From Cellulophaga sp. Hel_I_12 (GTDB lineage Bacteria > Bacteroidota > Bacteroidia > Flavobacteriales > Flavobacteriaceae), in contig NZ_JUHB01000001.1 in NCBI RefSeq assembly GCF_000799565.1, positions 2,979,501-3,043,500 of the forward strand: a DNA stretch of 64,000 nucleotides. The letters are read 5' to 3'. The translations under genes were made by a program, and so were the position numbers. Below, piece by piece: positions 6,992 to 49,351 of the stretch. The stretch's first letter is position 1; each line of letters opens with the position of its first letter. The notes beneath the pieces are model-generated. The model saw nothing but the letters and a program-made list of their open reading frames with translations. It was not told the DNA's origin and did not search any database.

Positions 6992-7627
6992 ATGAGCAAA
7001 TTAAAATTAACATTAGGCATGGTTGCGTTAGCATTTATGACTTTAACAGCGGTGTCTTGTAAAGATGCAAAAAAAGAAAACAATAACTCAAATGAGCACC
7101 ATTCAGAAATGAGTGCTGATGAAGATCATTCAAAAATGGACCATGATAATAATGATGGTCATCACGACGGTGAGAAAACGGAAATGACAACAAATGGTAT
7201 TGGAGATGGAAATGCCGAAATGGTACTAAAAGATTATTTTAATCTAAAGGATGCTTTGATAGCAGATGATAATGCAAAAGCAAAAGAATTAGGCGGGAAT
7301 TTGGCAAAAAGTTTAGGGAATTTAGATGTTTCTAAATACGTAGATACACAAAAATCGGAATTAAATGAAATTATTGAAGATGCCGTAGAACATGCGGAAC
7401 ATATTTCAGAAAGCCCAATGGAACATCAAAGAGAGCATTTTAAAATTTTAAGTAAAGATTTAACAGATATGGTAGCCATTACTGGAACTGCGAATACTTT
7501 ATATGAGCAATTTTGCCCAATGTACGATGGTGGTAGTTCTTGGTTGAGTAGAAGCGAAGAGGTTCTTAACCCTTATTACGGAAGCAAAATGCTTAAATGT
7601 GGTAAGGTGCAAAAAGAGATTAACTAA
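6992..7627 (+). CDS. DUF3347-domain lipoprotein
   Basis: 211 residues. The signal peptide ends in a lipobox (LTAVSC, Cys23). A His/Asp/Met-rich linker at about 33-65 (HHSEMSADEDHSKMDHD) looks like a metal-binding tether. The C-terminal ~140 residues are a DUF3347 domain: [42 protein letters not shown] and [12 protein letters not shown]. This is the same domain that ends the CusB-like adaptor at 2047-3834, and a close paralogue lies at 8103-8666. The conserved His, Cys and Met residues suggest a periplasmic copper-binding helical bundle. It follows the oxidase gene by 31 nt and is joined directly to the next gene. The family is certain; the biochemical role is inferred. Confidence 0.9.
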   Translation: MSKLKLTLGMVALAFMTLTAVSCKDAKKENNNSNEHHSEMSADEDHSKMDHDNNDGHHDGEKTEMTTNGIGDGNAEMVLKDYFNLKDALIADDNAKAKELGGNLAKSLGNLDVSKYVDTQKSELNEIIEDAVEHAEHISESPMEHQREHFKILSKDLTDMVAITGTANTLYEQFCPMYDGGSSWLSRSEEVLNPYYGSKMLKCGKVQKEIN

Positions 7628-35293: not shown

Positions 35294-35336
35294 TGATAAT
35301 TGTCATAGTAATTGACGAGCCTACGTGTTAATTTTG
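35294..35336 (+). promoter_or_regulatory. FNR-type site and promoter of hemN
   Basis: TGATAATTGTCA (35294-35305) fits the FNR core TGAT-N4-ATCA with one mismatch. Exactly 23 nt further lies a perfect Bacteroidota -7 box, TAATTTTG (35329-35336), followed by the hemN ATG at 35354. The geometry is the same as at the ccoS, ccoI and USP promoters in this window. Confidence 0.7.
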
Positions 35337-35353
35337 GGCTAAATAAAAATTAC

Positions 35354-36712
35354 ATGTGCAGTTTAGTCCAAAAATACAATGTCCCAGGACCGCGATATAC
35401 GAGTTACCCCACAGTACCTTATTGGGATTTACCTAGCTTTTCTGGTAAAAAATGGGAGTCAACTTTGTTGAAGAGTTTTGAAGAAAGTAATGCTACCGAA
35501 GGTATTAGCTTGTATATTCATTTACCTTTTTGTGAGCGTATGTGTACTTTTTGCGGCTGCCACAAACGCATTACCAAACGGCACGAAGTAGAGTCGCCAT
35601 ACATTAGCACCGTATTAAAAGAATGGCGTTTATATTGTGATATATTAGGGCAAAAACCACGAATTAAAGAATTACATTTAGGAGGCGGGACACCAACTTT
35701 TTTTTCACCTGAAAATTTACAAGGCTTAATTCAAGGTATTTTTAGATCTGCTGATAAAGCCGATGGCTACGAGTTTAGTTTTGAAGGGCACCCAAATAAT
35801 ACCACCAAAGAACATTTACAAGCCTTGTTTGATGTGGGCTTTAGAAGAGTAAGTTATGGTGTTCAAGATTATAATGAAAAGATTCAAAAAGCAATTCATA
35901 GAATTCAACCTTTTGAAAATGTGGAAAAAGTGACCAAATGGGCAAGGGAAATTGGCTATACTTCTGTTGGACACGATCTCATTTTTGGCTTACCACATCA
36001 AACCATTGATGACGTTGAGCATACGATTTTAAAAACAAAAAGTTTAATGCCTGACCGTTTGGCTTTTTATAGTTATGCCCATGTGCCATGGCTTAGTGGT
36101 AACGGACAAAGAGGCTATAAAGATGCTGATGTACCATCAGGGGAAGCCAAGCGCAAGCAATATGAACGCGGTAAAGAATTACTGGCGCAGGTGGGTTACG
36201 AAGAAATAGGGATGGATCATTTTGCCTTGCCAACCGACAGTTTGTCAAAAGCATTACATACAGGCAGTCTACATCGCAATTTTATGGGGTATACTGCTTC
36301 AAAAACTCAAGTGATGGTAGGTTTAGGCGCCTCAAGTATAAGTGATAGTTGGTATAGCTTTGCACAAAATGTAAAAGGATTAGAAGAGTATCAACATTTG
36401 GTAGAAAATAATATTATTCCGATTTATAGAGGTCATATTTTAACGGAAGAAGATAGTATTATTCGCAAACATATTTTAAATTTAATGTGCCAGTTTAAAA
36501 CGGTATTAGACATTAATGACAGCACTTTAGACACCGATTTAATTATGATGAAACTTCAGGAAATGGAAGCTGATAATTTGTTAGAAATTTCATCAAATAC
36601 AATAGTAGTCACCGAAAAAGGACGTGCATTTGTTCGAAATATATGTATGGCTTTTGATATGCATTTGTATCGAAAAGAACCTGAAACAAGATTGTTTTCA
36701 ATGACCGTATAA
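35354..36712 (+). CDS. hemN: Oxygen-independent coproporphyrinogen III oxidase (radical SAM)
   Basis: 452 residues from ATG 35354. An earlier TTG at 35312 lies inside the promoter and is rejected. The start CSLVQKYNVPGPRYTSYPT is typical of HemN. The radical-SAM cluster motif CxxxCxxC is Cys60, Cys64 and Cys67 (FCERMCTFCGC). LHLGGGTPTF, SFEGHPNN, YGVQDYNEKIQKAIHRIQ and GHDLIFGLPHQT are further family blocks, and the C-terminal HemN domain is present. It decarboxylates coproporphyrinogen III to protoporphyrinogen IX without oxygen, supplying haem under low oxygen. The FNR-type promoter fits that role and links it to the neighbouring cbb3 oxidase genes. Confidence 0.95.
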   Translation: MCSLVQKYNVPGPRYTSYPTVPYWDLPSFSGKKWESTLLKSFEESNATEGISLYIHLPFCERMCTFCGCHKRITKRHEVESPYISTVLKEWRLYCDILGQKPRIKELHLGGGTPTFFSPENLQGLIQGIFRSADKADGYEFSFEGHPNNTTKEHLQALFDVGFRRVSYGVQDYNEKIQKAIHRIQPFENVEKVTKWAREIGYTSVGHDLIFGLPHQTIDDVEHTILKTKSLMPDRLAFYSYAHVPWLSGNGQRGYKDADVPSGEAKRKQYERGKELLAQVGYEEIGMDHFALPTDSLSKALHTGSLHRNFMGYTASKTQVMVGLGASSISDSWYSFAQNVKGLEEYQHLVENNIIPIYRGHILTEEDSIIRKHILNLMCQFKTVLDINDSTLDTDLIMMKLQEMEADNLLEISSNTIVVTEKGRAFVRNICMAFDMHLYRKEPETRLFSMTV

Positions 36713-36887
36713 AACCTTGGTTGTTCTTAGTGGATACCCGTCAAAAGAAGCACAAGAAAAAGTAGCTATTAGGCCTGTAGTGAGCAGTACATTATTATTG
36801 CATCAACTATTTCGTATGCATCAGCAAATAAATAGAAAGATTTAAACGTTACATTAAAACCTATTATAATTAGAAAAATATAATCCT

Positions 36888-37712
36888 ATGAAAAATATAA
36901 TTGTACCAGTAGATTTTTCAATTCAGTCTGAAAATGCTTTAAAAGTAGCAGCTTCATTGGCAAAAAAATACAAGGCTACTATTTTTGCTTTACACATGCT
37001 AGAGCTCAATGACGCCTATATTACCTCTTCTCAAGCTGCACATCCAGAGCAAACTGTTTTTCTGCTTAAATTGGCAGAAAAACGCTTTAATGAGTTTTTA
37101 AGTAAGCCTTTTTTAAAAGACGTAAATGTTAAGCCAATTATTAAACACTTTAAAGTATTTAGTGAAGTAAATGAGGTAGCAGAAGCGAATAATGCAGATC
37201 TTATTATTATGGGTTCCCATGGAACCGACGGCCTCATGGAAATATTTGTAGGTTCGAATACTGAAAAAGTGGTGCGAAATGCAGACATTCCTGTTTTAGT
37301 GATTAAAAACGATATGGAAGCATTCTTGCCAGAAAAAATGCTTTTTGCTTGCGATTTGGCTGATGAAAATATTAATGCTTACCAGCGTGCAAAATATATC
37401 TCCAATTTATTAAATGTCAGCCTGCATATTTTATACATCAATACACCAGGTGATAACTTTTTAAGCACTCAAGATATCGATGATAAAATTGCGAAATTTT
37501 CAAATGCTGTTGGGGCCGAATTTATCGATGTTAAAGTATACAACGATTACACCGTTGAAAAAGGTGTTTTAAATTATGCGGAAGACCATAATATAGACCT
37601 TATTGGAATTACAACGCATGGTAGAAAAGGTTTAGCACATTTCTTTCGTGGTAGCATAGGGGAAGACATTGCAAACCACTCTGTACTGCCGGTTATTACA
37701 TTTAAGATATAA
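36888..37712 (+). CDS. Universal stress protein, two tandem UspA domains
   Basis: 274 residues with two UspA folds. The first is IIVPVDFSIQSENALKVAASLA to IIMGSHGTDGLMEIFVGSNTEKVVRNADIPVLVI (about 1-145), with the ATP-binding G-x2-G-x9-GS pattern. The second (about 148-274) ends GITTHGRKGLAHFFRGSIGEDIANHSVLPV. It is cytoplasmic. USPs with two domains often mark oxygen-limitation regulons. It follows hemN by 175 bp with no FNR site of its own that I can see, so it may be read through from hemN. It ends at a strong terminator. Confidence 0.92.
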   Translation: MKNIIVPVDFSIQSENALKVAASLAKKYKATIFALHMLELNDAYITSSQAAHPEQTVFLLKLAEKRFNEFLSKPFLKDVNVKPIIKHFKVFSEVNEVAEANNADLIIMGSHGTDGLMEIFVGSNTEKVVRNADIPVLVIKNDMEAFLPEKMLFACDLADENINAYQRAKYISNLLNVSLHILYINTPGDNFLSTQDIDDKIAKFSNAVGAEFIDVKVYNDYTVEKGVLNYAEDHNIDLIGITTHGRKGLAHFFRGSIGEDIANHSVLPVITFKI

Positions 37713-37740
37713 TTATTTTCTTGGTAAAAAAGTTTCACTT

Positions 37741-37767
37741 ATCCCGCTTTTTTAGCGGGATTTTTTA
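37741..37767 (+). terminator. Rho-independent terminator after the universal stress gene
   Basis: ATCCCGCT (37741-37748) pairs with AGCGGGAT (37754-37761) around a 5-nt T-loop, followed by a T-run. Confidence 0.88.
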
Positions 37768-37808
37768 TTTAGGTTTTTTTAAACCTTCAATAGCTTACCT
37801 AGTGTTTC

Positions 37809-38198
37809 TTATTTGCTTCGGTTCTGAAACATTTGTAGGTACAGCATAGAGCTTATTTGCCTAGCTCTGTTTTTAGCGATAAAAGCATTATCGCCCATAA
37901 ACAATTCGTCAATAGTCTGAAACCATAAATTGAGCCACAAACCAAAGTGTTCTGGAGTAGTGTTGTGATTCATTTTTTCATCAACTTCGTTATGAGCTTT
38001 AATAGGGTTGCCATGATATTTTCTTTTTAAGAAAAGCTGGGTATCCCAGAAGTCGGTTAAAAGTGCTAAGTGGCTTTCCCAATCCGTTATAATACCATTA
38101 AAAATAGGGCCTAAAACCTCGTCTACACGTACTTTAGCGTAAAAGCTACGTACTAGTTGACTCACATCTTCTCTGTTCTCTAACTCTTTTAATTCCAT
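37809..38198 (-). CDS. Group III truncated haemoglobin
   Basis: 129 residues of 2-over-2 globin type. VSQLVRSFYAKVRVDEVLGPIF begins the fold. The B/E region is DWESHLALLTDFWDTQLF, and KYHGNPIKAHNEV holds the proximal His (KAH-type, F8). GLWLNLWFQTIDELFMG and the C-terminal RARQISSMLYLQ helix follow. The family binds oxygen or NO in the cytoplasm, often in microaerobic or nitrosative settings. It lies between the hemN/USP pair and the cbb3 genes, facing the same way as the latter. No FNR palindrome is seen in its upstream 140 bp. Confidence 0.9.
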   Translation of the reverse strand: MELKELENREDVSQLVRSFYAKVRVDEVLGPIFNGIITDWESHLALLTDFWDTQLFLKRKYHGNPIKAHNEVDEKMNHNTTPEHFGLWLNLWFQTIDELFMGDNAFIAKNRARQISSMLYLQMFQNRSK

Positions 38199-38337
38199 GA
38201 TTATTTCAAGGATTTTTTATTTTATCTCGGTAGCAAGCAGTTGAAAAAGAAGAGCTAGAGTAAAAAGTCTAGTTTCTTTATTCTTAAAGCGCAGCGGTCT
38301 TGATTCTTCTGCTCAAATTTCTTGTATTAGGTACAGC

Positions 38338-39042
38338 TTACTCATGACACTCCATATCTGCTGAAACAACTTGTGTAACGGGTGCTGGTGAAATATAAGG
38401 AATACCCAGACCTAAACCTCGTAGAATAAAAAGTGCACCAATCAACACTACAAAAACAGGAATTAATTTTTGAATTTTTTGTTTCGCTGTATTTTTTAAA
38501 AGTGCGCTAAAATAAATAGCCGTTGTCATTAACGGAATAGTACCTGCACCGAATATTACCATATATAATGCGCCTTGAAGCGCATCTCCCATAGCAATAG
38601 CGCCAAATAATGCCATATATACTAATCCGCAAGGTAAAAACCCATTTAAAAACCCTATCGTCAAAAAAGTATCAGGAGTTTTTTTCTGAAGTTCTTTTCC
38701 CAAGCTGTTTTTAACTTTCCCAACTATTTTATATACAGGTTTTGAAAAGTTGTATTTACTAAAGGTTTTGTAGGGAATTAAAATCACCACAATCATCAAT
38801 ACACCAATGGTAATTGATAGTTTTTGTTGCATTCCAAAAACGAATAAACCTTTTCCTAAGAGTCCAAAGACCAAACCTAGTATTCCATACGCCAATAATC
38901 GCCCAAAATGATAAATAAATATTTGAATGAATTTTTTTAGGTGATTGGTTCTATCAACAGGTAACATAAAGGCAATAGGGCCACACATGCCTACACAGTG
39001 TAGACTGCCCATTAAACCTAATATGAGTGCGGATAGAATCAT
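38338..39042 (-). CDS. TauE/SafE-like (UreH-type) membrane protein of the cbb3 cluster
   Basis: 234 residues with about six transmembrane helices. It starts LILGLMGSLHCVGMCGPIAF, the CxxxC-containing motif of the DsbD/UreH-like transmembrane family usually annotated as sulfite exporter TauE/SafE. A second motif, GFLNGFLPCGLVYMALFGAI, mirrors it. In Bacteroidota this gene regularly follows ccoG and ccoH and is thought to help copper or cytochrome c assembly of cbb3 oxidase, not sulfite export. It begins 3 nt after the FixH-like gene and ends the operon. A His/Cys pair at the C-terminus (ADMECHE) could bind metal. Confidence 0.88.
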   Translation of the reverse strand: MILSALILGLMGSLHCVGMCGPIAFMLPVDRTNHLKKFIQIFIYHFGRLLAYGILGLVFGLLGKGLFVFGMQQKLSITIGVLMIVVILIPYKTFSKYNFSKPVYKIVGKVKNSLGKELQKKTPDTFLTIGFLNGFLPCGLVYMALFGAIAMGDALQGALYMVIFGAGTIPLMTTAIYFSALLKNTAKQKIQKLIPVFVVLIGALFILRGLGLGIPYISPAPVTQVVSADMECHE

Positions 39043-39045
39043 TGT

Positions 39046-39492
39046 TTAATAAGTAATACTTTTTTTCGATAGAAATTCTTCATCTTTGTAGTTCCAAGAA
39101 ACTTTAATGTCCCAGCGACCATCTAACAAACGTTTGTCAGGTACGAGCAAATTTGTGTTGGATAGACTTATAGGAAAGTCAAAATCCAATTGTTTATTAG
39201 ATGGTCTGTATAGGGACACCGTGCCTTTTACTTTTTCAAATTCCAAATTTTCAGGAAATGTAACAAGTAATCCTTCTGGTGTTTTTGCAACAATTAAATT
39301 ATTATTCGTGTTTATCGCATTATTTTGAGCATCTAAATCTTTTTGAAAGGTTAGCTCTTGTTTATAATACTCTTCGGTCACTAAATCGTGGTTCGATTTA
39401 TCGTCCATACTCATGCGAATCACAAAAAATAAGATAAAACTTATAAATGCAGCCAATGCTAATACGATACCTGTTCCCCAATTTATTTTCAT
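39046..39492 (-). CDS. ccoH: FixH/CcoH-family cbb3 oxidase assembly protein
   Basis: 148 residues with one N-terminal membrane helix (WGTGIVLALAAFISFILFFV). The family motif SNHDLVTEEYYKQELTFQKDLDAQNNA follows, then an immunoglobulin-like periplasmic portion (GTVSLYRPSNKQLDFDFPIS) and a final WDIKVSWNYKDEEF strand. FixH/CcoH proteins stabilise late cbb3 assembly intermediates. It lies between ccoG and the TauE/SafE-like gene. A 7-nt tandem repeat occupies the gap to ccoG, directly upstream of this start. Confidence 0.9.
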   Translation of the reverse strand: MKINWGTGIVLALAAFISFILFFVIRMSMDDKSNHDLVTEEYYKQELTFQKDLDAQNNAINTNNNLIVAKTPEGLLVTFPENLEFEKVKGTVSLYRPSNKQLDFDFPISLSNTNLLVPDKRLLDGRWDIKVSWNYKDEEFLSKKSITY

Positions 39493-39502
39493 ATTTATTT
39501 TT

Positions 39503-39532
39503 GTCTAATGTCTAATGTCTAATGTCTAATGT
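39503..39532. repeat. Heptanucleotide tandem repeat (GTCTAAT x4) between ccoG and ccoH
   Basis: GTCTAAT repeats four times without error from 39503 to 39530 and a partial GT follows. It occupies the ribosome-binding/leader zone of ccoH (start at 39492, minus strand). Such pure short repeats change length by slippage, and 7 is not a multiple of 3, but here the repeat is outside coding sequence, so it could only alter spacing. Confidence 0.85.
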
Positions 39533-39595
39533 TGAAAGTTGTTTTGAACAATTACGTATAACCTTTATTTTTTTTACTATTCTCGAACAACGAAA

Positions 39596-41014
39596 TTATC
39601 GATAACTTCTCGGTGCTAAAAATGCCGTTGTGGTAGTTTCAATTAATGTATCCCCACTATAAATTTCAATTTTTATTTTTTCTTTATCACTTTTTATGGC
39701 AGCGTTATTTATTTCTATAAACAAGGTGCCTTCGGCTAATTGCTGCCCTTTAACATTAAAATCTCCTTCACGTACTAATTTTATCGTGCCTTTATGCGAA
39801 ACTAAAGCGAAATGAATATTATTAATATCAGTTGATGTTTTGTTCACTAATTTAAAAGTGTACACATTGCTAATTATATTCCCTTCTTTATGTTCATATA
39901 ATTGGCCTGGTAATCTTAGAATGGTTGCATCTAAATCGTTTCGTAAAAATAACATTCCGATTAAAACACCGGTTAAAATTACTAAGACAGCCGTATACCC
40001 TTTTAGACGAGGTGAAAACGTAAATTTTTCTTTTTTAACAATTTCATCTTCACTAGCATACCGAATTAAGCCTTTAGGAAGGTCTACTTTTTCCATAATA
40101 GTATCGCACTCGTCAATACAAGCGGTACAGTTTACGCATTCTAATTGGGTACCGTTTCGAATATCTATCCCAGTCGGACAAACATTTACGCACTGAAAAC
40201 AGTCGATACAATCGCCATGCCCTAAAGCTTCACGATCTTCATTTTTACGCCATTTTTTTCTGCCATTTTCTGCTTCACCACGCTTGTGGTCATAGGCAAC
40301 CACAATTGATTTATTATCTAATAAAACACTTTGCATTCGGCCATAAGGACAAGCAATGATACATACTTGCTCTCTGAACCAAGCAAAAACAAAATAAAAT
40401 ACAGCCGTAAAAATTAACAGCGATACCATAGTACTTACATGTGCTAAAGGCCCATCATAAACATATTGTATCAAGCGATCACTACCAATTAAATAAGCTA
40501 AAAATACATTGGCAATTAAAAACGAGATGATAAAAAAGATAATCCATTTTAAAACACGTTTTCTAATTTTTTCCGCGTTCCATTCTTGTCGCTCTAGTTT
40601 AATTTGGGCACCTCGATCCCCATCAATCCAATATTCAATTCTTCGAAAAACCATTTCCATAAAAATGGTCTGTGGGCACATCCAACCACAAAAAATGCGT
40701 CCGAAAGCAACTGTGAAAAGAGCAATAAAGATAACCCCAATAATCATAGAGATTACAAACAAATGAAAGTCTTGTGGCCAAAATGGAAATCCAAATATAT
40801 TAAAGCGACGCTCTAATACATTAAACATCAAAAACTGATTGCCGTTAATTTTTACAAAGGGTGCTGCAAACAAAAAAACGAGTAAAAAATAGCTAACATA
40901 TTTGCGATATTCGTATAATTTACCACTAGGCTTTTTTGGAAAAACCCATGCTCTTTTGCCCTCCTCGTTTATGGTTCCGATGGTGTCTCTAAAATTATCT
41001 TGATCTTGCGACAT
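39596..41014 (-). CDS. ccoG: cbb3 oxidase accessory ferredoxin-type protein CcoG (FixG/RdxA)
   Basis: About 472 residues from MSQDQDNF; an ATG 21 nt upstream (41035) is also possible. Helices anchor it in the membrane. Iron-sulfur motifs are CGWMCPQTIF, CIIACPYGRMQS and two ferredoxin clusters, CIDCFQCVNVCPTG and CVNCTACIDECD. The C-terminal FixG immunoglobulin-like domain (about 360-470) follows. CcoG is a cupric reductase that supplies Cu(I) for the cbb3 active site in characterised bacteria. It follows ccoP after a hairpin, and the order ccoP-ccoG-ccoH is the standard one. The heptamer repeat lies just after its stop codon. Confidence 0.93.
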   Translation of the reverse strand: MSQDQDNFRDTIGTINEEGKRAWVFPKKPSGKLYEYRKYVSYFLLVFLFAAPFVKINGNQFLMFNVLERRFNIFGFPFWPQDFHLFVISMIIGVIFIALFTVAFGRIFCGWMCPQTIFMEMVFRRIEYWIDGDRGAQIKLERQEWNAEKIRKRVLKWIIFFIISFLIANVFLAYLIGSDRLIQYVYDGPLAHVSTMVSLLIFTAVFYFVFAWFREQVCIIACPYGRMQSVLLDNKSIVVAYDHKRGEAENGRKKWRKNEDREALGHGDCIDCFQCVNVCPTGIDIRNGTQLECVNCTACIDECDTIMEKVDLPKGLIRYASEDEIVKKEKFTFSPRLKGYTAVLVILTGVLIGMLFLRNDLDATILRLPGQLYEHKEGNIISNVYTFKLVNKTSTDINNIHFALVSHKGTIKLVREGDFNVKGQQLAEGTLFIEINNAAIKSDKEKIKIEIYSGDTLIETTTTAFLAPRSYR

Positions 41015-41109
41015 TTTTTGTTGTATTTGTAGCATTAGAATACCCTATTCTGATACTATTCGGTGCGCTTGGAAGGACTGTTTTTGTTGCGATTCTATTG
41101 TGATGTAAA

Positions 41110-41133
41110 CCTGCCCTTAATAAAAAGAGCAGG
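41110..41133 (-). terminator. Intercistronic hairpin between ccoP and ccoG
   Basis: Read on the minus strand, CCTGCTCTT and AAGGGCAGG form a 9-bp stem with one G.U pair and a 6-nt loop, 25 nt after the ccoP stop. Only a short TTTA follows, so it may be a partial terminator or an mRNA-processing/stabilising structure. Confidence 0.5.
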
Positions 41134-41157
41134 GTGGTTTTTACAAGGCTTATTAAA

Positions 41158-42147
41158 CTATTCTATGGTAGTGCCATCTACATCTAGTGTTTCTTTAAAC
41201 TCTAAGGTATCAACTTGTACTTCAATTTTTACTTTTGTAGCATCAATATCTACTCCTTCAACCTTCATGTGTGGATCTATCCATATTTCTCCTTCAGCAA
41301 TTTTTGGATTTGCAGCTGTTTTTCCTTCAAAACCTAAAACATAACTGGCAACTTGCGCCATTTCAAGAGGTTTCAAGCTTTGTTTCCAAGCTACCATACC
41401 TTTACCGTCACGACCACCTTCGGATATCGTATTAAAGACATTTTTAATACCTCCACCTAAAATCCAGTTTCTATCTGTTAAGTTAGGGCCAATTCCACCA
41501 CCACCATCGGCCATATGGCAGGCAACGCAGTTGCTTTCAAAAATGGCTTTACCAGCACTTAAGTCCGATGCATCCGCTAATAATTCAACCGTAGTAACAT
41601 CGACCAAATCCTTAGCATTTTTCTTGTATTCTTCTATTTCAGCTTGTGCAATAGCAACTTCTGTTAAGTATTCGGCATCTTGATTGTAGTCATTAAATAT
41701 GTGAAAACGCGCTAAATAAACGACAGCGAAAACGATAGACGCATAAAATAAATATACCCACCATGGCGGTAATTTATTATCTAATTCTTTAATGCCATCG
41801 TAGTTGTGATCTAGAATAATTTCATGCTCAACTTCAGCAGGTTTAGAACCAAGCAATTTTTTGTACATATTTTTAGCCCATGTCCATTCAAATCGGGTTG
41901 CTTTATGGGTTAAATAACGTTCTTTTGCTTCTTCTGAAAGGGTTTGGAACATTACATTTTCAATAGAACTCAAAATTAGCTCTATAGCTATTAATAATAT
42001 TAAAACCATCAGCATAAAAAACTGAGTGATAGGGTAGGCTAAAATAGCGGGTTGTTTTCCCGAGTCTATAAAGAATTCCATCATTCCGAAAATGATAAAG
42101 AAGGCTACGGGTATTCTTATCCACCAAAGTGACGATGTGTTTTTCAT
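41158..42147 (-). CDS. ccoP: cbb3-type cytochrome c oxidase subunit III (CcoP, single-haem form)
   Basis: 329 residues. Two N-terminal helices (about 8-30 and 34-55, the second extra relative to proteobacteria), a cytoplasmic stretch, a third helix (PPWWVYLFYASIVFAVVYLARF) and a periplasmic cytochrome c domain are visible. There is only one haem motif, CVACH, with IGPNLTDRNWILGG, and the Met ligand is in KGMVAWKQSL. Proteobacterial CcoP has two haems, so electrons here take a shorter route. It overlaps ccoQ by 4 nt, indicating translational coupling. The last ~50 residues form an extra acidic tail. Confidence 0.93.
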   Translation of the reverse strand: MKNTSSLWWIRIPVAFFIIFGMMEFFIDSGKQPAILAYPITQFFMLMVLILLIAIELILSSIENVMFQTLSEEAKERYLTHKATRFEWTWAKNMYKKLLGSKPAEVEHEIILDHNYDGIKELDNKLPPWWVYLFYASIVFAVVYLARFHIFNDYNQDAEYLTEVAIAQAEIEEYKKNAKDLVDVTTVELLADASDLSAGKAIFESNCVACHMADGGGGIGPNLTDRNWILGGGIKNVFNTISEGGRDGKGMVAWKQSLKPLEMAQVASYVLGFEGKTAANPKIAEGEIWIDPHMKVEGVDIDATKVKIEVQVDTLEFKETLDVDGTTIE

Positions 42148-42335
42148 AATTCTAAGTTTTGTTGGTTGTCTTTTTCCATAGGTAATTCACTTACTTCTTT
42201 AATGTATTCTTTTGAGGCTGTAAAAACCCAAAGGAATAAAACCATGAAGAAAATAAAGAAGATTAATAACGATATAATAGGGTAGGTGGCAACGCCATCT
42301 ATAGTTTCCATATATCCTTTTACAAATTTGAACAT
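42144..42335 (-). CDS. ccoQ: cbb3 oxidase small subunit CcoQ
   Basis: 63 residues: a short start, one membrane helix (YPIISLLIFFIFFMVLFLWVF) and a polar tail (TASKEYIKEVSELPME), the usual FixQ/CcoQ shape. It lies between ccoNO and ccoP and overlaps ccoP by 4 nt. Upstream, a 113-bp intercistronic space holds two hairpins. CcoQ stabilises the interaction of CcoP with the core. Confidence 0.88.
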   Translation of the reverse strand: MFKFVKGYMETIDGVATYPIISLLIFFIFFMVLFLWVFTASKEYIKEVSELPMEKDNQQNLEL

Positions 42336-42351
42336 GATTTCTATTTTTATG

Positions 42352-42435
42352 CGACAAGGTTTTTAAGCCTTGTTGGTTTGATTCAACGTTTTTTTATGGC
42401 TACAAGGAGCATTGTAAGGTGTCAGCCCCTTGTAG
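42352..42435 (-). other. Two hairpins between ccoNO and ccoQ
   Basis: CGACAAGG (42352-42359) pairs with CCTTGTTG (42368-42375) including one G.U. CTACAAGG (42400-42407) pairs with CCTTGTAG (42428-42435) perfectly. Both stems share the ACAAGG/CCTTGT core. No T-run follows on the coding strand. They are likely to affect mRNA processing or relative expression of ccoNO and ccoQP. Confidence 0.5.
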
Positions 42436-42448
42436 ATTTACTTTTGAA

Positions 42449-44656
42449 TTAGTTATTATCCGTAACTATTTCTCCGGTTTCTTTGATCTTAATATCAGTA
42501 CCCAAGCGCTGTAAGTAAGCTATTAACGAAACTATTTCACGGTCGCGCATTTGTACAAACTCCATTCCGTTTTCTGCGGCATACTTTTTATCAGCTTCGT
42601 AGTTTGTTGCGAAATCAGGATCGGCATATAAGTTTTTTTCTATTTGGGTAGCTTGTGCATCCATCGACGTAATAGCGTTTTCTATGTCTTCATCTGAATA
42701 GGGTACACCAAGGGATACCATTGTTTTCATTTTAGCTTGAATATCTGAGCGATCATGTTCATCGCGAACCATCCAAGAGTATGAGGGCATAATTGAACCA
42801 GAAGAAGTACTTTGTGGATCGTACATGTGATTTAAGTGCCAATTGTCTGAATATTTGCCACCTACACGTAATAAATCTGGACCTGTACGCTTGCTTCCCC
42901 AAAGGAAAGGGTGATCGTAAACAAACTCACCTGCTTTAGCATATTCGCCATAACGTTCTACTTCACTTCTAAACGGGCGTACCATCTGTGAGTGACAACC
43001 CACACAGCCTTCGCGAATGTATAAATCACGACCTTCTAATTCTAAAGGGGTGTAAGGTTTAACACTTGTTATGGTTGGAATATTAGATTTTACCAAAATG
43101 GTAGGTATAATTTGTACCGCGCCACCAATTAAAATCGCAATAGTGGCAAAAATAGTCAACTGCACAGGCTTACGCTCTAACCAAGTATGGTAGGTTTCTC
43201 CAGCCGTTCTCTTTTTAGAAACTTTTGTTAAAGCCGCAGCTTCTGCCAATTCGTCTTCTACTTTACTTCCAGATTTAATGGTGAGTACTACGTTGTAAAT
43301 CATCACACAAGCACCAACAATATACATGGTGCCACCAATAGCACGCATCCAGTACATGGGCATAATTTCAGTTACGGTCTCTAAAAAGTTCCCATAAACT
43401 AATGTCCCATCTGGGTTAAAGTCTTTCCACATTAAGGCCTGAGTAAAACCAGCAACGTACATGGGTAATGCGTATAAAATAATCCCTAAAGTACCAATCC
43501 AGAAGTGAAAATTAGCTAAACCAACAGAGGCTAAACGCGTTTTGAAAATTTTAGGCACCATCCAATAAATCATACCAAAGGCTAAAAATCCGTTCCACGC
43601 TAGCGCTCCAACGTGTACGTGAGCAATGATCCAATCACTAAAGTGTGCAATAGCATTTACGTTTTTTAAAGATAATAAGGGTCCTTCAAAAGTGGCCATA
43701 CCATAACCGGTAATAGCAACTACCATAAATTTTAAGGTTGGGTCTGTACGTACTTTATCCCAGGCACCTCTTAAGGTCAATAGTCCGTTAATCATACCAC
43801 CCCAAGATGGCGCTAATAACATAATAGAGAAGGCTACCCCTAAATTTTGAGCCCAATCCGGTAATGCAGAATACAATAAATGGTGAGGGCCTGCCCAGAT
43901 GTATATAAAGATTAAAGACCAAAAGTGAACAATAGATAATTTATAAGAATAAACTGGTCTGTTGGCAGCCTTTGGAACAAAATAATACATTAAACCTAGA
44001 AAGGGCGTAGTTAAGAAAAATGCTACGGCATTATGGCCGTACCACCATTGTACTAAAGCATCTTGAACTCCAGCATATACAGAATAACTTTTCATTCCAC
44101 CTAGGCTTACGGGTAATGCCAAACTATTAAAAATATGAAGTACGGCAACCGTTACAAATGTGGCTAAATAAAACCAAATCGCAACATATAAGTGGCGTTG
44201 CCTTCTTTTGATCATAGTACCAATAAGGTTCGCCCCGAAGGCTACCCAAACTAGTGCAATAGCAATATCTATTGGCCATTCAAGTTCAGCATATTCTTTT
44301 GAAGTTGAGTACCCAAGTGGTAATGTAATTGCAGCGGCTACAATAATTAATTGCCATCCCCAGAAATTAAAATTACTTAAAAAATCGCTATACATACGCG
44401 CTTTTAATAGGCGTTGTGTAGAGTAATACACCCCTGCGAAAATAGCGTTCCCCACAAAAGCAAAAATAACAGCGTTGGTATGTAAAGGCCTTAAACGACC
44501 AAAACTAAGCCATGATATGCCGTCAGTAAGGTTTGGAAAGATGAAAAGAAAAGCCAATAGTAGGCCTACTGTCATCCCTATAATTCCCCAAAACATTGTT
44601 GCGTAGAGGAACTTTTTAACGACTTTATTGTCGTAATAAAACTGCTGTACTTCCAT
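42449..44656 (-). CDS. ccoNO: Fused cbb3 cytochrome oxidase subunits I and II (CcoN-CcoO)
   Basis: 735 residues. The CcoN part (about 1-470) has 12 or more helices with the haem/copper histidines in LRPLHTNAVIFAFVGN, WWYGHNAVAFFLT, GPHHLLYSALPDW and IAHVHVGALAWNG. After a linker and another helix (LTIFATIAILIGGAVQIIPT), the CcoO domain (about 545-725) has CVGCH, SQMVRPFRSEVERYGEY, RTGPDLLRVGGKYS and the axial Met in SIMPSYSWM. The fusion is the norm in Bacteroidota. It reduces O2 to water with high affinity and pumps protons in the inner membrane. It starts 2 nt after ccoS, whose FNR promoter must drive it. Confidence 0.96.
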   Translation of the reverse strand: MEVQQFYYDNKVVKKFLYATMFWGIIGMTVGLLLAFLFIFPNLTDGISWLSFGRLRPLHTNAVIFAFVGNAIFAGVYYSTQRLLKARMYSDFLSNFNFWGWQLIIVAAAITLPLGYSTSKEYAELEWPIDIAIALVWVAFGANLIGTMIKRRQRHLYVAIWFYLATFVTVAVLHIFNSLALPVSLGGMKSYSVYAGVQDALVQWWYGHNAVAFFLTTPFLGLMYYFVPKAANRPVYSYKLSIVHFWSLIFIYIWAGPHHLLYSALPDWAQNLGVAFSIMLLAPSWGGMINGLLTLRGAWDKVRTDPTLKFMVVAITGYGMATFEGPLLSLKNVNAIAHFSDWIIAHVHVGALAWNGFLAFGMIYWMVPKIFKTRLASVGLANFHFWIGTLGIILYALPMYVAGFTQALMWKDFNPDGTLVYGNFLETVTEIMPMYWMRAIGGTMYIVGACVMIYNVVLTIKSGSKVEDELAEAAALTKVSKKRTAGETYHTWLERKPVQLTIFATIAILIGGAVQIIPTILVKSNIPTITSVKPYTPLELEGRDLYIREGCVGCHSQMVRPFRSEVERYGEYAKAGEFVYDHPFLWGSKRTGPDLLRVGGKYSDNWHLNHMYDPQSTSSGSIMPSYSWMVRDEHDRSDIQAKMKTMVSLGVPYSDEDIENAITSMDAQATQIEKNLYADPDFATNYEADKKYAAENGMEFVQMRDREIVSLIAYLQRLGTDIKIKETGEIVTDNN

Positions 44657-44658
44657 AA

Positions 44659-44931
44659 TTAATTGTTTAAACTTTTATTTAGTTGGATACTTTTTTTATT
44701 CGAGATTACGAGCGCAGCCTTGCGATCTGTTTGATTGGATTGTAATTTTTTTTCGGATGTTATAGCTTGCTTCGTAGAACTTTCTTTTACCAATTCATCA
44801 TCAAAAAGCATACGAACAGATGGGGTATACGAATCATCATATTGCCCACTGCGTACCGATACAATAAAAGCAATAAAGAAAATTAGAGCAACAATAATGC
44901 TGATGGATAATAATAAATAAATAACGCTCAT
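44659..44931 (-). CDS. ccoS: cbb3 oxidase maturation protein CcoS
   Basis: 90 residues: one N-terminal helix (VIYLLLSISIIVALIFFIAFIVSV), the CcoS signature SGQYDDSYTPSVRMLFDDE, and a non-conserved polar tail. The family is needed for cofactor insertion into CcoN. It is the first gene of the ccoS-NO-Q-P-G-H operon, and the next gene starts 2 nt later. The promoter upstream (44951-44993) carries an FNR-type palindrome. Confidence 0.9.
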   Translation of the reverse strand: MSVIYLLLSISIIVALIFFIAFIVSVRSGQYDDSYTPSVRMLFDDELVKESSTKQAITSEKKLQSNQTDRKAALVISNKKSIQLNKSLNN

Positions 44932-44950
44932 ACCTACCTGAATTCTTGTG

Positions 44951-44993
44951 TAAAACTACGTTGATGATAAAAGGAATAATATGACATTTATCA
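44951..44993 (-). promoter_or_regulatory. FNR-type site and promoter of the cco operon
   Basis: On the minus strand TGATAAATGTCA (44993-44982) fits TGAY-N4-RTCA. After exactly 23 nt comes TAGTTTTA (44958-44951), a good -7-like box. The ccoS ATG is 20 nt further. The same box, TAGTTTTAcac, appears at the USP promoter at 48417. Confidence 0.72.
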
Positions 44994-45005
44994 TCTTTCT
45001 AAAAT

Positions 45006-47402
45006 TTATCTTAATTTTTTTCCTAATAGCGTAGTGGCAATAGTTGTAAACGCTACAATGCTAATAGAACTTAAGGGCATTAAAATGGCCGCTATAACAG
45101 GTTGTAACTGTCCGGTAACGGCAAAATATAAGCCTATACTATTATAGAGTAAAGACAAAAAAAAGCTCCATTTTATAATGGTCATTGCTTTTTTTGAAGC
45201 TAAAACATAACTGTACAATTCTTTAAATTTTGTGGCATCAAGGATACCATCACAGGCCGGAGAAAAAATGGTGACGTTTTCTGATATGGCAATGCCCACA
45301 TTACTCTGCGCTAAAGCACCAGCATCATTTAAGCCATCACCGACCATCATCACTTTTTTGTCTTGATCTTGTAATGCTTTTATAAAGTGTAATTTATCTG
45401 GTGGTTTCTGATTAAAATACAGCGGCGTGAGTTTTGGCAATAAGGCTTCTAAGCGCTCTTTTTCGCCTTCGTTGTCGCCAGATAAAATAGCCAATTGTAA
45501 ACTTTTTGACATTTCTTTAAAAACTTCAGAAACCCCTTCTCTATATTGATTTTTAAAAACAAAGCACCCTTTATAGGCATCATTGCTACTGATGTGAACC
45601 GTGGTAGTTTTTATATCTTCTGATGCTGTCTTGCCTACAAAATTTGCGGATCCTACTTTTATATGGCTCTTATTGAGATACCCTTCTATGCCTTTGCCTA
45701 GGTGTTCTTCATATTCGTCAAGAGTGATAATATCATGTTCCGCAAGCATGTCGTATAAACTTCTGCTTAATGGGTGGTTTGATGCTCTCAATGTGTTTTT
45801 TAAGAGTGCTTCTTCTTCCTTGCTTAACTCTAATCCTTCATACGTAACACTACTTTTTTTGGCGGTTGTAAGAGTACCTGTTTTGTCAAAAATTGCCGTA
45901 TCAATTTGGGCTAATTTCTCAATAGTTTGGGTGTCTTTCAAATAGAATTTCTTTTTGCCAAATATTCGCAACATGTTCCCTAAAGTAAAGGGCGAAGCTA
46001 GCGCTATAGCACAAGGACATGCGATGATTAAAACTGCAGTAAATACATTCATAACCTTGCTCGGATCATAAAAAATCCAAAAAAGAGAAGCAGAAAAAGC
46101 AACCGTTAAAACAAATATTGTAAATCGTTTTCCGATACTATCTGTTAGTGTTTGAAATTTACTTGAGGCATCGTCTTGAAAAACTGAATTACTCCAAAGT
46201 TGGGTTAAATAACTTTGCGAAACAGACTTTAGAGCTTCCATTTCAATAGCACCCCGCAGTTGTTTTCCACCGGCAAAAATTTTGTCACCAGCGATTTTGT
46301 GCACTGGTTCTGATTCTCCAGTTACAAAACTGTAATCAATATTGGCATTTCCATGCATTAAAATACCATCAACAGGGATCAACTCCTCGTTTCGGATTAA
46401 AAGTCTGTCGCCTCTTTTAAGGTCGTGAACCTGTATGGTTTCTTCTTTTCGATCCTCTAAAATTCGAGTAACAGCAATCGGAAAATACGACTTGTAGTCT
46501 CGCTCAAAAGAAAGGAAAGAATAGGTTTTTTGCTGAAAAAATTTTCCAAGGAGTAAGAAAAAAATTAAGCCCGTTAAACTATCGAAAAAGCCAGGCCCCC
46601 ATTCAAATATAATCTCTAAAGTACTACGAATAAAAAGTACTACAATTCCCAAGGCAATAGGAACATCAATATTTAATATTTTGGAGCGTAAACCTTTATA
46701 CGCTGAAATAAAATAATCAATTCCGGCATAAAACACTACGGGTAATGAAAAGGTGAACATCAACCATCTAAAAACACCTTCGTACTCGTTGAGCCAATAT
46801 TCTCCGCCATTGGCCTTGCTGCTCGATAGATCAAAATACTCGGGAAAGGATAAAAACATAACGTTGCCAAAGGCAAAGCCTGCAATCCCTAGCTTATAGA
46901 GTAAACTACGATCAACAGCTTTTTTCTTATTGTCAAAATCATCTAAAGAAATATACGGCTCGTAGCCAATATGTGCCAGTAAAATAACAATTTCTTTAAG
47001 TGATGTTAACTCAGAATTATAATGAATTCGAATGGTCTTTTTTGGAAAATCGACTTGAGAACTGCTTATAGTAGGGATTAACTTATTTAAGTTTTCTAAA
47101 ATCCAAATACAGGAACTACAATGAATATGTGGAATATATAAATTTATAATTTGAAGCTGATGATCATTAAACTCTGTTAATCTTTCAATAATAGTAGCAT
47201 CATCGAGAAAATCATACTTTCCTTCAACCACCTTTGGAGTTGCACCTGCAGCAGCCTGTAAGTCATAATAATAGGATAGGTTATTAGCTGAAAAAATATC
47301 ATAGACGGTTTTACAGCCATGACAACAGAACATTTTCTCATCATGTAAAATAGGCGTATTTGAACAATCCTCACCACAGTGATAACACTTGTTTTTATGC
47401 AT
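45006..47402 (-). CDS. ccoI: cbb3 oxidase-associated copper P-type ATPase CcoI (FixI)
   Basis: 798 residues from ATG 47402; a longer frame to 47468 would run through the FNR site and is rejected. A Cys-rich start (CYHCGEDC, FCCHGCKTVYDIF) is a zinc-ribbon-like region typical of FixI. An HMA-like domain with HIHCSSCIWILENL follows. The P1B core has TGESEPV, ACPCAIALASPF, DKTGTLTT and MVGDGLNDAGALAQS. CcoI exports Cu(I) for cbb3 assembly instead of detoxification, which separates it from the island's CopA. It is preceded by an FNR site shared with the divergent crp/fnr gene, and is followed by ccoS after a 74-bp promoter gap. Confidence 0.95.
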   Translation of the reverse strand: MHKNKCYHCGEDCSNTPILHDEKMFCCHGCKTVYDIFSANNLSYYYDLQAAAGATPKVVEGKYDFLDDATIIERLTEFNDHQLQIINLYIPHIHCSSCIWILENLNKLIPTISSSQVDFPKKTIRIHYNSELTSLKEIVILLAHIGYEPYISLDDFDNKKKAVDRSLLYKLGIAGFAFGNVMFLSFPEYFDLSSSKANGGEYWLNEYEGVFRWLMFTFSLPVVFYAGIDYFISAYKGLRSKILNIDVPIALGIVVLFIRSTLEIIFEWGPGFFDSLTGLIFFLLLGKFFQQKTYSFLSFERDYKSYFPIAVTRILEDRKEETIQVHDLKRGDRLLIRNEELIPVDGILMHGNANIDYSFVTGESEPVHKIAGDKIFAGGKQLRGAIEMEALKSVSQSYLTQLWSNSVFQDDASSKFQTLTDSIGKRFTIFVLTVAFSASLFWIFYDPSKVMNVFTAVLIIACPCAIALASPFTLGNMLRIFGKKKFYLKDTQTIEKLAQIDTAIFDKTGTLTTAKKSSVTYEGLELSKEEEALLKNTLRASNHPLSRSLYDMLAEHDIITLDEYEEHLGKGIEGYLNKSHIKVGSANFVGKTASEDIKTTTVHISSNDAYKGCFVFKNQYREGVSEVFKEMSKSLQLAILSGDNEGEKERLEALLPKLTPLYFNQKPPDKLHFIKALQDQDKKVMMVGDGLNDAGALAQSNVGIAISENVTIFSPACDGILDATKFKELYSYVLASKKAMTIIKWSFFLSLLYNSIGLYFAVTGQLQPVIAAILMPLSSISIVAFTTIATTLLGKKLR

Positions 47403-47424
47403 AATAATTTGCTTGTACCGACGA

Positions 47425-47467
47425 CAAAGATGTATATTTACGAGTGAATGAAATATGACTTTTGTCA
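47425..47467 (-). promoter_or_regulatory. FNR-type site between ccoI and the Crp/Fnr gene
   Basis: TGACTTTTGTCA (47456-47467) is a near-perfect palindrome. On the ccoI side, 23 nt away, lies CATCTTTG (47432-47425), matching five of six positions of TAnnTTTG. The Fnr gene starts 50 nt away in the other direction, so autoregulation from the same site is possible, although its -7 box (TACATTG at 47484) does not have the same spacing. Confidence 0.65.
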
Positions 47468-47516
47468 TGTTTAACGAATTTGGTACATTGCAAGTTATCA
47501 GAATAATAAGCTAAGT

Positions 47517-48215
47517 ATGAAAGATGGTATAGAAACTAGATGCGAGCAGTGTATTGTACGGCAGTTCAATTCGTTGCGTGCCATGAGCAAAGAGGAGTTA
47601 AAGAAAGTTTCTGATTCTAAAACATCAAAAATTGTAAAAAAGGGAGAAAGCATTTTTGAGGAAGGTGAAAAATTGAACGGGGTTTTTTGCGTTCGAAGTG
47701 GCGTTTCTAAACTGTCTAAGTTAAGCGCCAATGGGAAAGACCAAATTGTTAAATTAGCAACAAAGGGTCAAGTGCTTGGTCAGCGATCGGTTATTTCGGA
47801 AGAAGTATCTAATTTAAGCGCAAAAGCAGTGGAAGATATGGAGGTTTGTTTTATACCAAAGGAAGAAATAGTACACACCTTAAATACCAATCCTAATTTT
47901 GCTGTTGAGGTTTTAAGGCATATGGCTCACGATTTGAAAGAAGCAGATGACGTGATTGTTAACATGTCACAAAAAACAGTAAAACAACGTGTTGCTGAAG
48001 CTTTTTTGTACATGAAAAAAAATTTTGGAGTGGACGACAAAGGCTTTCTACTTTTAACATTGTCTAGAGAAGATATAGCAAGTGTTGTAGGAACTGCAAC
48101 AGAATCTTGTATCAGAATTATTTCTGAATTCAAAAAGGAAAAGTATATTAAAACTTCTGGAAAACAAATTGGTATTATCAATGAAAAGGCGCTACAAGAT
48201 ATGATTGAGTTTTAA
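47517..48215 (+). CDS. Crp/Fnr-family transcriptional regulator, probable oxygen-responsive Fnr
   Basis: 232 residues. It begins with CEQC (Cys9, Cys12); further cysteines at 58 and 111 could complete an iron-sulfur site as in FNR. A cyclic-nucleotide-binding-type barrel spans about 25-140, then a long dimer helix, then a winged helix with SREDIASVVGTATESCIRIISEF. The recognition helix keeps Glu and Arg (ES-x2-R) in the positions that read TGA-N-TCA half-sites. It is divergent from ccoI with a palindrome between them. Four matching sites nearby make it the obvious regulator of the cbb3/hemN/USP regulon. Oxygen sensing by an Fe-S cluster is inferred. Confidence 0.9.
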   Translation: MKDGIETRCEQCIVRQFNSLRAMSKEELKKVSDSKTSKIVKKGESIFEEGEKLNGVFCVRSGVSKLSKLSANGKDQIVKLATKGQVLGQRSVISEEVSNLSAKAVEDMEVCFIPKEEIVHTLNTNPNFAVEVLRHMAHDLKEADDVIVNMSQKTVKQRVAEAFLYMKKNFGVDDKGFLLLTLSREDIASVVGTATESCIRIISEFKKEKYIKTSGKQIGIINEKALQDMIEF

Positions 48216-48381
48216 AAATTTTAAATTCACCTTTTAAGGTAAAGAATAGATAAGAATAAATTTTGCTTTACAGTTTGTCAGTCATAAAGTACTTCCCTTT
48301 TTTATACTTAAGCATCTAGCTTTTTTTTGCCAATAAACAAGTACTCCTTTTCCCTTATCTTTTCAAGGTATTTTCATAAGC

Positions 48382-48424
48382 TGATAATTATCATAGTTTT
48401 AAGAAGCCTCATCCGCTAGTTTTA
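48382..48424 (+). promoter_or_regulatory. FNR-type site and promoter of the universal stress gene
   Basis: TGATAATTATCA (48382-48393) is a perfect 12-bp palindrome identical to the FNR core consensus TGAT-N4-ATCA. A -7-like TAGTTTTA (48417-48424) begins after exactly 23 nt. The gene starts 27 nt later. Confidence 0.75.
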
Positions 48425-48451: not shown

Positions 48452-49351
48452 ATGAAAAACATATTAATACCCACTGATTTTTCTAAAAATGCATGGAATG
48501 CTGTTACTTATGCCATTGCATTGTACGACAATGAGGATTGTAATTTTTACTTGCTAAATACCTATACGCCTAGCATATCAAACAGCCGATTCATGGCTTC
48601 TATGGCTTATGACGAAGCTGAAATAGTACAAAATTGCTCCAAAGAAGGGCTAAATCATCTACTTCTTAAGATTAAAGCCAATTACCACAACCCTAAACAT
48701 AATTTCACTACAATTTCGTCCTTCAATTTGCTGGTTGACGAAGTTAAAGAAATCATAGAACAACATACTATTGAGATGGTTATTTTAGGTTCTAAAGGAG
48801 CCTCTGGGTTGGCTGAAGTTTTTATGGGAAGTAATGCCGTACGCATTATTAAAGCGATTAAAAGTTGTCCAGTATTGGCCATTCCTGAGTATTTTAACTT
48901 CGAAAAACCTACGGAAATAGCTTTTGCAACAGATTTTAATAGGTTTTATACGCCGTCAGAACTAGAGCCAATTATAAACTTAGCAACTACTTTTAATTCT
49001 GTTTTACGGATTGTTCATGTGCAATATGAAATTAAAGCACTTACCGATGTTCAACAGTTTAATTTAAATATGCTTCGAAAGTATTTGGGTGAGGTGGAAC
49101 ATTACATTCATACCATTACTGAGTTGAATTCTGTTTCAAAGACACTAGAAGTTTTTGTTGCGGAATTAGACGTGCATTTGTTAGCTATGCTGAATTATCA
49201 ACACAGTTATATGGAACGAATGACCCGAGAGCCCGTCATAGAAAAAGTGGCTTTTCATACGCGAACGCCATTACTTGTTATTCCAGAATTGGGAATGAGG
49301 GCGTCTTCTAAACAAAAAAAAACACAAGACTTGTTTTCTGAAAAGAACTAA
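48452..49351 (+). CDS. Universal stress protein, two tandem UspA domains
   Basis: 299 residues. The first UspA domain (about 1-148) runs from ILIPTDFSKNAWNAVTYAIAL to VILGSKGASGLAEVFMGSNAVRIIKAIKSCPVLAI, with the nucleotide-binding G-x2-G-x9-GS-like pattern. The second (about 150-290) is more divergent: the glycine motif before the last strand is missing (QHSYMERMTREPVIEKVAFHTRTPLLVI), so it probably does not bind ATP. The gene has its own FNR-type promoter and sits beside the Crp/Fnr gene, so it is expected to be induced when oxygen is low. Confidence 0.92.
   Translation: MKNILIPTDFSKNAWNAVTYAIALYDNEDCNFYLLNTYTPSISNSRFMASMAYDEAEIVQNCSKEGLNHLLLKIKANYHNPKHNFTTISSFNLLVDEVKEIIEQHTIEMVILGSKGASGLAEVFMGSNAVRIIKAIKSCPVLAIPEYFNFEKPTEIAFATDFNRFYTPSELEPIINLATTFNSVLRIVHVQYEIKALTDVQQFNLNMLRKYLGEVEHYIHTITELNSVSKTLEVFVAELDVHLLAMLNYQHSYMERMTREPVIEKVAFHTRTPLLVIPELGMRASSKQKKTQDLFSEKN

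Follow-up and report, generated by a model that had tools for sequence, protein, structure and literature searches.

The FNR protein of Escherichia coli, whose ligands are three clustered N-terminal cysteines and a central one (C20, C23, C29, and C122), recognizes the operator TTGAT-N4-ATCAA, and the FNR group carries a recognition helix of the type E-x2-S-R. Hypoxia and dormancy islands are known from the mycobacterial DosR regulon, which is under a NarL/FixJ-type regulator, and from the proteobacterial Anr/FixK islands. In the part of the published E. coli survey consulted here, 19 of 23 directly activated promoters with a known start have their FNR site at -41.5 +/- 4 (PMC3688515). Among the Bacteroidota, the Crp/Fnr proteins HcpR2 and MalR are said, in the portions of the reports considered, to be devoid of the FNR cysteine motif; the HcpR2 motif reads GTAAC-N4-GTTAC, with hcp as its sole target in most Bacteroides, and carbon sources are the signal attributed to MalR (PMC1274295, PMC8510549). 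The sigma-A promoters of Bacteroidota are unlike those of E. coli, and the literature that we searched says little about how activators act on them; among the top-ranked open-access titles and abstract openings, there was no study of a Flavobacteriaceae FNR regulon, of activation from -41.5 in Bacteroidota, or of the receiver-Crp system described below. Here we analysed a stretch of 64,000 nucleotides (nt) from Cellulophaga sp. Hel_I_12 (positions 2979501-3043500 of a single contig, 4.03 Mb long; the window), which carries a cbb3 oxidase locus together with a Crp/Fnr regulator gene (fnr). Four of its promoters combine a Crp/Fnr-type dyad with a Bacteroidota sigma-A box at one exact distance, and we infer, with good confidence, that they are class II promoters dependent on a Crp/Fnr activator.

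The dyads follow TGAY-N4-RTCA (TGAYNNNNRTCA) and are located at 35294, 44982, 47456, and 48382. On the gene strand, exactly 23 nt past each of them, stands a -7 box, namely TAATTTTG before hemN, TAGTTTTA before ccoS, CATCTTTG before ccoI, and again TAGTTTTA before a gene for a universal stress protein (USP), so that the dyad centre is 29.5 bp from the first base of the box in all four. An earlier description of the window made from its letters (the sequence-only reading) had named these positions, the spacing, and the 29.5-bp distance, all of which were recovered, as was a Crp/Fnr gene with the motif CEQC amid the set, found at 47517-48215; the ccoI box is CANNTTTG and does not fit the TANNTTT that this reading put forward for a genome-wide search. 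The elements and genes concerned are the following:

35294..35305, plus strand: dyad TGATAATTGTCA before hemN, from the motif search
35329..35336, plus strand: -7 box of hemN, TAATTTTG, 23 nt past the dyad
35354..36712, plus strand: hemN, oxygen-independent coproporphyrinogen III oxidase (TIGR00538, 417.5 bits against a cut-off of 324.95)
44982..44993, minus strand: dyad before ccoS, TGATAAATGTCA on the gene strand, from the motif search
44951..44958, minus strand: -7 box of the cco operon, TAGTTTTA
44659..44931, minus strand: ccoS/FixS, lead gene of the cbb3 operon (PF03597)
47456..47467, minus strand: dyad between the divergent ccoI and fnr
47425..47432, minus strand: -7 box of ccoI, CATCTTTG
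45006..47402, minus strand: ccoI, P-type ATPase with a heavy-metal domain (copper-type models below cut-off)
47491..47498, plus strand: position of the fnr-side -7 box, decayed, CAAGTTAT
47517..48215, plus strand: fnr, Crp/Fnr regulator with C9, C12, C58, and C111 (PF00027, PF13545)
48382..48393, plus strand: dyad TGATAATTATCA before the USP gene
48417..48424, plus strand: -7 box of the USP gene, TAGTTTTA
48452..49351, plus strand: universal stress protein (PF00582)

For hemN, the start at 35354 was preferred to that of the longest open reading frame (ORF) at 35312, and for ccoI, a name assigned from its context beside the cco genes, the start at 47402 was preferred to that of the longest ORF at 47468, which falls at the dyad. 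By itself, the number of dyads in the window is unremarkable (7, with 3.7 expected), because 10 of 100 shuffles reach 7 as well. The remaining dyads at 7117, 7153, and 41681 (the last inside ccoP) have no box at 23 nt on either strand and were taken as chance occurrences.

Throughout the genome, TGAYN4RTCA-N(8-38)-TANNTTT gave 117 matches. Among the 100 of them that were listed, a spacer of 23 nt occurs 31 times, and each of the 30 other spacings 0 to 6 times (mean 2.3; Poisson P ~2e-24), including 22 nt once and 24 nt twice. Furthermore, when the box was taken as TANNTTTR and the spacer as 18-28 nt, 31 of 41 TGAYN4RTCA matches were at 23 nt versus 1 of 40 for other TGAN6TCA sequences, and both the Y/R letters and the spacing are therefore part of the signal. 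The exact 23-nt pattern is present at 35 sites genome-wide, compared with 5 for the reversed pattern; hence the four promoters put forward by the sequence-only reading are all real but belong to a larger set. Six more sites, ccoI included, have a first box base other than T (control 1). At 27 of the 36 sites examined in fetched stretches and the window, a start codon follows 22-37 nt after the first box base.

The same geometry recurs in relatives. The exact pattern was found 2359 times in 149 family genomes, sampled as one per genus, against 180 times for the reversed control, and 97 of the 149 have at least 10 sites, a number that the control pattern attains in none. In a phylum sample of 158 genomes, sites and control matches amounted to 316 and 32 in the 16 genomes of the same family, 25 and 3 in the 2 of the same order, 130 and 12 in the 21 of the same class, and 155 and 44 in the 119 of other classes (maximum 7 per genome); that is, the geometry is strong in the family, clear in order and class, and a weak excess elsewhere. 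Around fnr, 80 named Flavobacteriaceae loci, which stem from related genera and are not independent, contain 206 dyad-box pairs at 23 nt, and no other spacing between 5 and 45 nt has more than 18; the control dyad gives a single pair at 23 nt.

For Flavobacterium psychrophilum, the part of the source used here gives a sigma-A box TAnnTTTG at -12 to -5 and an increase of cbb3 oxidase and haem synthesis genes at low O2 (PMC9723704). With the box at -12 to -5, a centre 29.5 bp ahead of it would place the dyad of Cellulophaga sp. Hel_I_12 at -41.5, which is the class II position of FNR; this distance to the -10/-7 element is common to the four window promoters and to the genome- and family-wide peak at 23 nt. 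A -33 element (TTTG) is absent by base tallies, the dyad being followed by T and then by a T-rich tract. In the mechanism that we propose, a dimer of the Crp/Fnr family would bind TGAY-N4-RTCA centred at -41.5 and, by contacting sigma-A and the alpha subunit, would replace the missing -33 element, allowing RNA polymerase to use the TANNTTTR -7 box. Within the window, the Fnr encoded at 47517-48215 is the most likely regulator; it would be active at low O2, with an iron-sulfur cluster held by C9, C12, C58, and C111, and would turn on the cbb3 oxidase (ccoS operon), the metal pump (ccoI), O2-independent haem synthesis (hemN), and the stress protein. The class-II-like activation with a Bacteroidota sigma factor that had been suggested previously is thus strengthened by the centre at -41.5, by the spacing fixed across the family, and by site numbers that track regulator genes, and is refined by a very likely second reader of the operator and by a shifted set of cysteines.

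In their centre at -41.5 and their low-O2 respiratory targets, these promoters are reminiscent of E. coli class II promoters of the dmsA and narG type, although the spacing looks stricter here, the part of the E. coli table considered giving -40.5 to -45.5 for most activated promoters (PMC3688515). They differ in the sigma box, which is TANNTTTG at -12 to -5, in the T that follows the operator (RTCAT, 81-89%), and in a regulator that has C58 instead of the third N-terminal cysteine. HcpR2 and the MalR-type proteins are alike as Crp/Fnr members of the same phylum; instead of hcp, the sites here serve cbb3, hemN, and stress genes.

Conservation of the individual promoters was counted over those of the 80 loci that have usable upstream sequence; the loci end short of hemN, and the comparison covers the remaining three. 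N23-TANNTTT is kept before ccoS in 71 of 72 loci and before the USP gene in 75 of 77. Before ccoI, the dyad is found in all 76, with a box whose first base is C (59), A (10), or G (7) and T in 0 of 76, in contrast to ccoS (T in 71/71) and USP (T in 75/75). The ccoI box looks like a detuned, weak promoter that has been conserved as such. Of the 80 loci, 73 have this dyad ahead of fnr and the ccoI box on the opposite flank; fnr carries a TANNTTT box of its own, 23 nt from the common dyad, in 48 of the 73. Accordingly arranged, one dimer site would face two promoters, a good box on the fnr side and a weak one on the ccoI side. The fnr-side box is decayed in the window genome (CAAGTTAT), as it is in L096, the named relative nearest to it, and we make no claim of fnr autoregulation in the window genome. 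Judged by Fnr, the nearest named relatives are a Cellulophaga metagenome-assembled genome (90%) and Maribacter halichondriae (86%), in a set from which the genome's own record was possibly left out; this places the genome in Flavobacteriaceae.

The window Fnr has the fold of the FNR group, a cNMP-type beta-roll with a Crp helix-turn-helix, and its structure model (mean predicted local distance difference test score, pLDDT, of 84.5) reaches a template modelling (TM) score of 0.77 to A. fischeri holo-FNR (5e44) and 0.83 to P. gingivalis 2gau. In the alignment with A. fischeri FNR, C9 and C12 (CxxC) as well as C111 coincide with FNR ligands. Across 129 family loci, the position of the third N-terminal cysteine holds N (125) or S (4), and in the phylum set it holds N, S, or T; within the recognition helix E196 and R200 are invariant in 42 sequences, with I199 rather than S before R200. 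C58, an alanine in FNR, is invariant down to 40% identity, and all four cysteines (C9, C12, C58, and C111) are invariant in 129 of 129 family loci, a set in which some genomes are possibly counted twice. Out of 30 phylum-level loci, partly overlapping the family set, 28 have all four cysteines, and the two distant ones left (L280 and L281) have none of the four and no CxxC. Because the four are kept or lost together, they suggest one metal site with a relocated ligand; in the model, C58 is on strand 55-61 and C111 on strand 108-114, which we take to be neighbours in the Crp jelly roll. By its residues, the window Fnr is not a canonical FNR, its cysteine set being shifted. As this set is non-canonical and the cluster hypothetical in structure, the cysteines might sense something other than O2, such as nitric oxide, redox state, or a metal, which we consider unlikely in view of window targets devoted to low-O2 respiration and haem synthesis, an alignment that pairs CxxC and C111 with their A. 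fischeri FNR counterparts, a CxxC and a central cysteine, and the joint fate of all four residues.

Fnr seems not to be the sole reader of the operator. When the family genomes that are at least 90% complete were grouped by Fnr orthologues (E <1e-44) and by fusions of a receiver to a Crp-type protein (E <1e-60), the mean number of sites was 2.2 with neither regulator (n=17, control 1.18), 11.2 with Fnr only (n=46, control 1.33), 18.3 with a fusion only (n=28, control 1.04), and 29.5 with both (n=35, control 1.23). Because the site number adds up across the regulator classes, we suggest that the two use one operator and one geometry. Genome size is not the sole cause of site number, since 0-11 sites were counted in nine genomes that have neither regulator, although these are at least 90% complete and measure 2.6 Mb or more.

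Cellulophaga sp. Hel_I_12 encodes two such fusions, both with receiver, cNMP, and HTH_Crp_2 domains (PF00072, PF00027, PF13545), which makes them response regulators with a Crp-type output. Within 60 kb of their genes, at 360-405 kb, lie 16 of the 31 listed 23-nt sites, and when [TC]ANNTTT boxes at the 23-nt spacing are counted, positions 360000-405050 of the contig hold 20 sites. Among the first genes behind the sites are those for four USPs, a thioredoxin, an Hsp20 protein, a PAS histidine kinase, a phosphoenolpyruvate (PEP) synthase, an MlaE permease, and some proteins without a family match. A PfkB-type kinase gene diverges from that of a CBS-domain M50 peptidase with a single dyad between them, and in three divergent pairs of the island one dyad has a box at 23 nt on either side. 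Single dyads with a 23-nt box on both sides were seen on the contig at 369100-369111, 370390-370401, 384549-384560, and 249814-249825, and one of the two boxes flanking the last is AATCTTTA. The stretch is a stress or dormancy-like island; a denitrification island, the first guess, was abandoned as family searches of the first genes gave stress and carbon-metabolism genes. With its USPs, Hsp20, PfkB-type kinase, CBS-domain protein, PEP synthase, and thioredoxin, it can be likened to the DosR regulon and the Anr/FixK islands, unlike which its local Crp/Fnr-type regulators are receiver-Crp fusions, with proposed class II sites. Sites outside the island lead, among others, genes for a cytochrome c, a USP, a pyridine-nucleotide oxidoreductase, and a DJ-1/PfpI protein, and a phosphate acetyltransferase starts 162 nt from one of them.

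The window Fnr and the two fusions have ATE(S/T)xIR in common in their recognition helices, and all three are similar in the loop G73-K74, which by alignment corresponds to the sigma-contacting region of E. coli FNR. Separate operators for each regulator were rejected, as 84 dyads from four fusion-only genomes and 72 from four Fnr-only genomes (those with fully listed 23-nt matches, from 8 and 9 searched) are nearly alike. In the central four bases, G/C amounts to 13% in the fusion-only and 8% in the Fnr-only genomes (P 0.10), and in the own genome to 22% at 16 island sites and 10% at 15 others (P 0.009), differences too small to assign sites to regulators. The receiver-Crp fusions very likely also read the TGAY-N4-RTCA operator, and those of the 360-405 kb island would do so in the same geometry. 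They might even be its main or sole readers, the window included, with Fnr binding elsewhere, given that fusion-only genomes average more sites than Fnr-only ones, that 53 of the 84 sites in the four fusion-only genomes are within 60 kb of a fusion gene, and that the dyad letters hardly differ between the two groups. We regard this as improbable, because the 46 Fnr-only genomes still exceed their control by 11.2 to 1.33, and the ccoI-fnr dyad is in 73 of the 80 named loci, 48 of them with a box for fnr itself at 23 nt. Less probable still are dyads that act as repressor sites over the promoter, the spacing reflecting a blocked RNA polymerase that is released at low O2, for although they are positioned just upstream of a would-be -33 element, repression does not demand one exact spacing, the base tallies leave just T-rich sequence past RTCAT and no TTTG to block, and in three island pairs, as at 48 of 73 ccoI/fnr loci, divergent genes share a single dyad with 23 nt to the box on either side.

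Several points weigh against class II activation by Fnr and the fusions as set out here. The placing of the box at -12 to -5 is taken over from Flavobacterium. In the Fnr model, residues 1-11 have a pLDDT <50, which puts the cluster geometry beyond its reach, and the third N-terminal cysteine of FNR is missing. The association between regulators and sites ignores phylogeny, though each of the 149 genomes represents a different genus, and other Crp/Fnr paralogues may be present in the genomes classed as Fnr only or fusion only. Moreover, some genomes have sites and no regulator above threshold: G048 with 31 sites (82% complete, one weak Crp-like match), G147 with 18 (73% complete), and G138 with 11, yet with a control of 7. 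Finally, not every site in the own genome need be functional: 869046 falls within an ORF, no ORF of at least 60 amino acids starts within 300 nt of 1057021 or 1211468, and the sole ORF start within reach of 560201 is 287 nt off, for which reasons several are probably chance matches.

Joining these elements, we tentatively propose, at somewhat less than even odds for the whole, a Bacteroidota lineage of FNR with a cluster on CxxC and the beta-roll residues C58 and C111. It would share its operator with phosphorylation-controlled receiver-Crp proteins at a rigid -41.5 on a TANNTTTG sigma-A promoter. O2 and a two-component signal would thereby enter one promoter code for respiration and a dormancy-like island, with divergent pairs on single dyads and ccoI kept weak by a conserved non-T at -12. 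The promoter architecture is of a known kind; what is unusual is the apparently common operator for two regulator classes, the shifted cysteines, and the conserved weak ccoI box. Dozens of promoters of fixed geometry indicate a family-wide low-oxygen and stress switch, and a pattern this rigid and countable lets activator regulons be read across the family from sequence alone and allows class II activation on a Bacteroidota sigma factor to be tested directly. It also points to an O2-sensing iron-sulfur site that is probably arranged in a new way and to a second regulator class that seemingly reads the same operator.

Behind ccoS, and between the cco genes and hemN, the window contains:

39596..44656, minus strand: cbb3 oxidase genes from family searches, ccoNO (42449-44656) and ccoG (39596-41035) matching their models above cut-off, ccoP (41158-42147) under its cut-off
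42144-42335, minus strand: small ORF without a Pfam match, putative ccoQ by position only
38338..39492, minus strand: FixH (39046-39492, PF05751) and a DsbD_2-type membrane protein (38338-39042, PF13386)

An ORF of 129 amino acids at 37809-38198, without matches in Pfam or NCBIfam, has by eye the look of a small haemoglobin-type protein.

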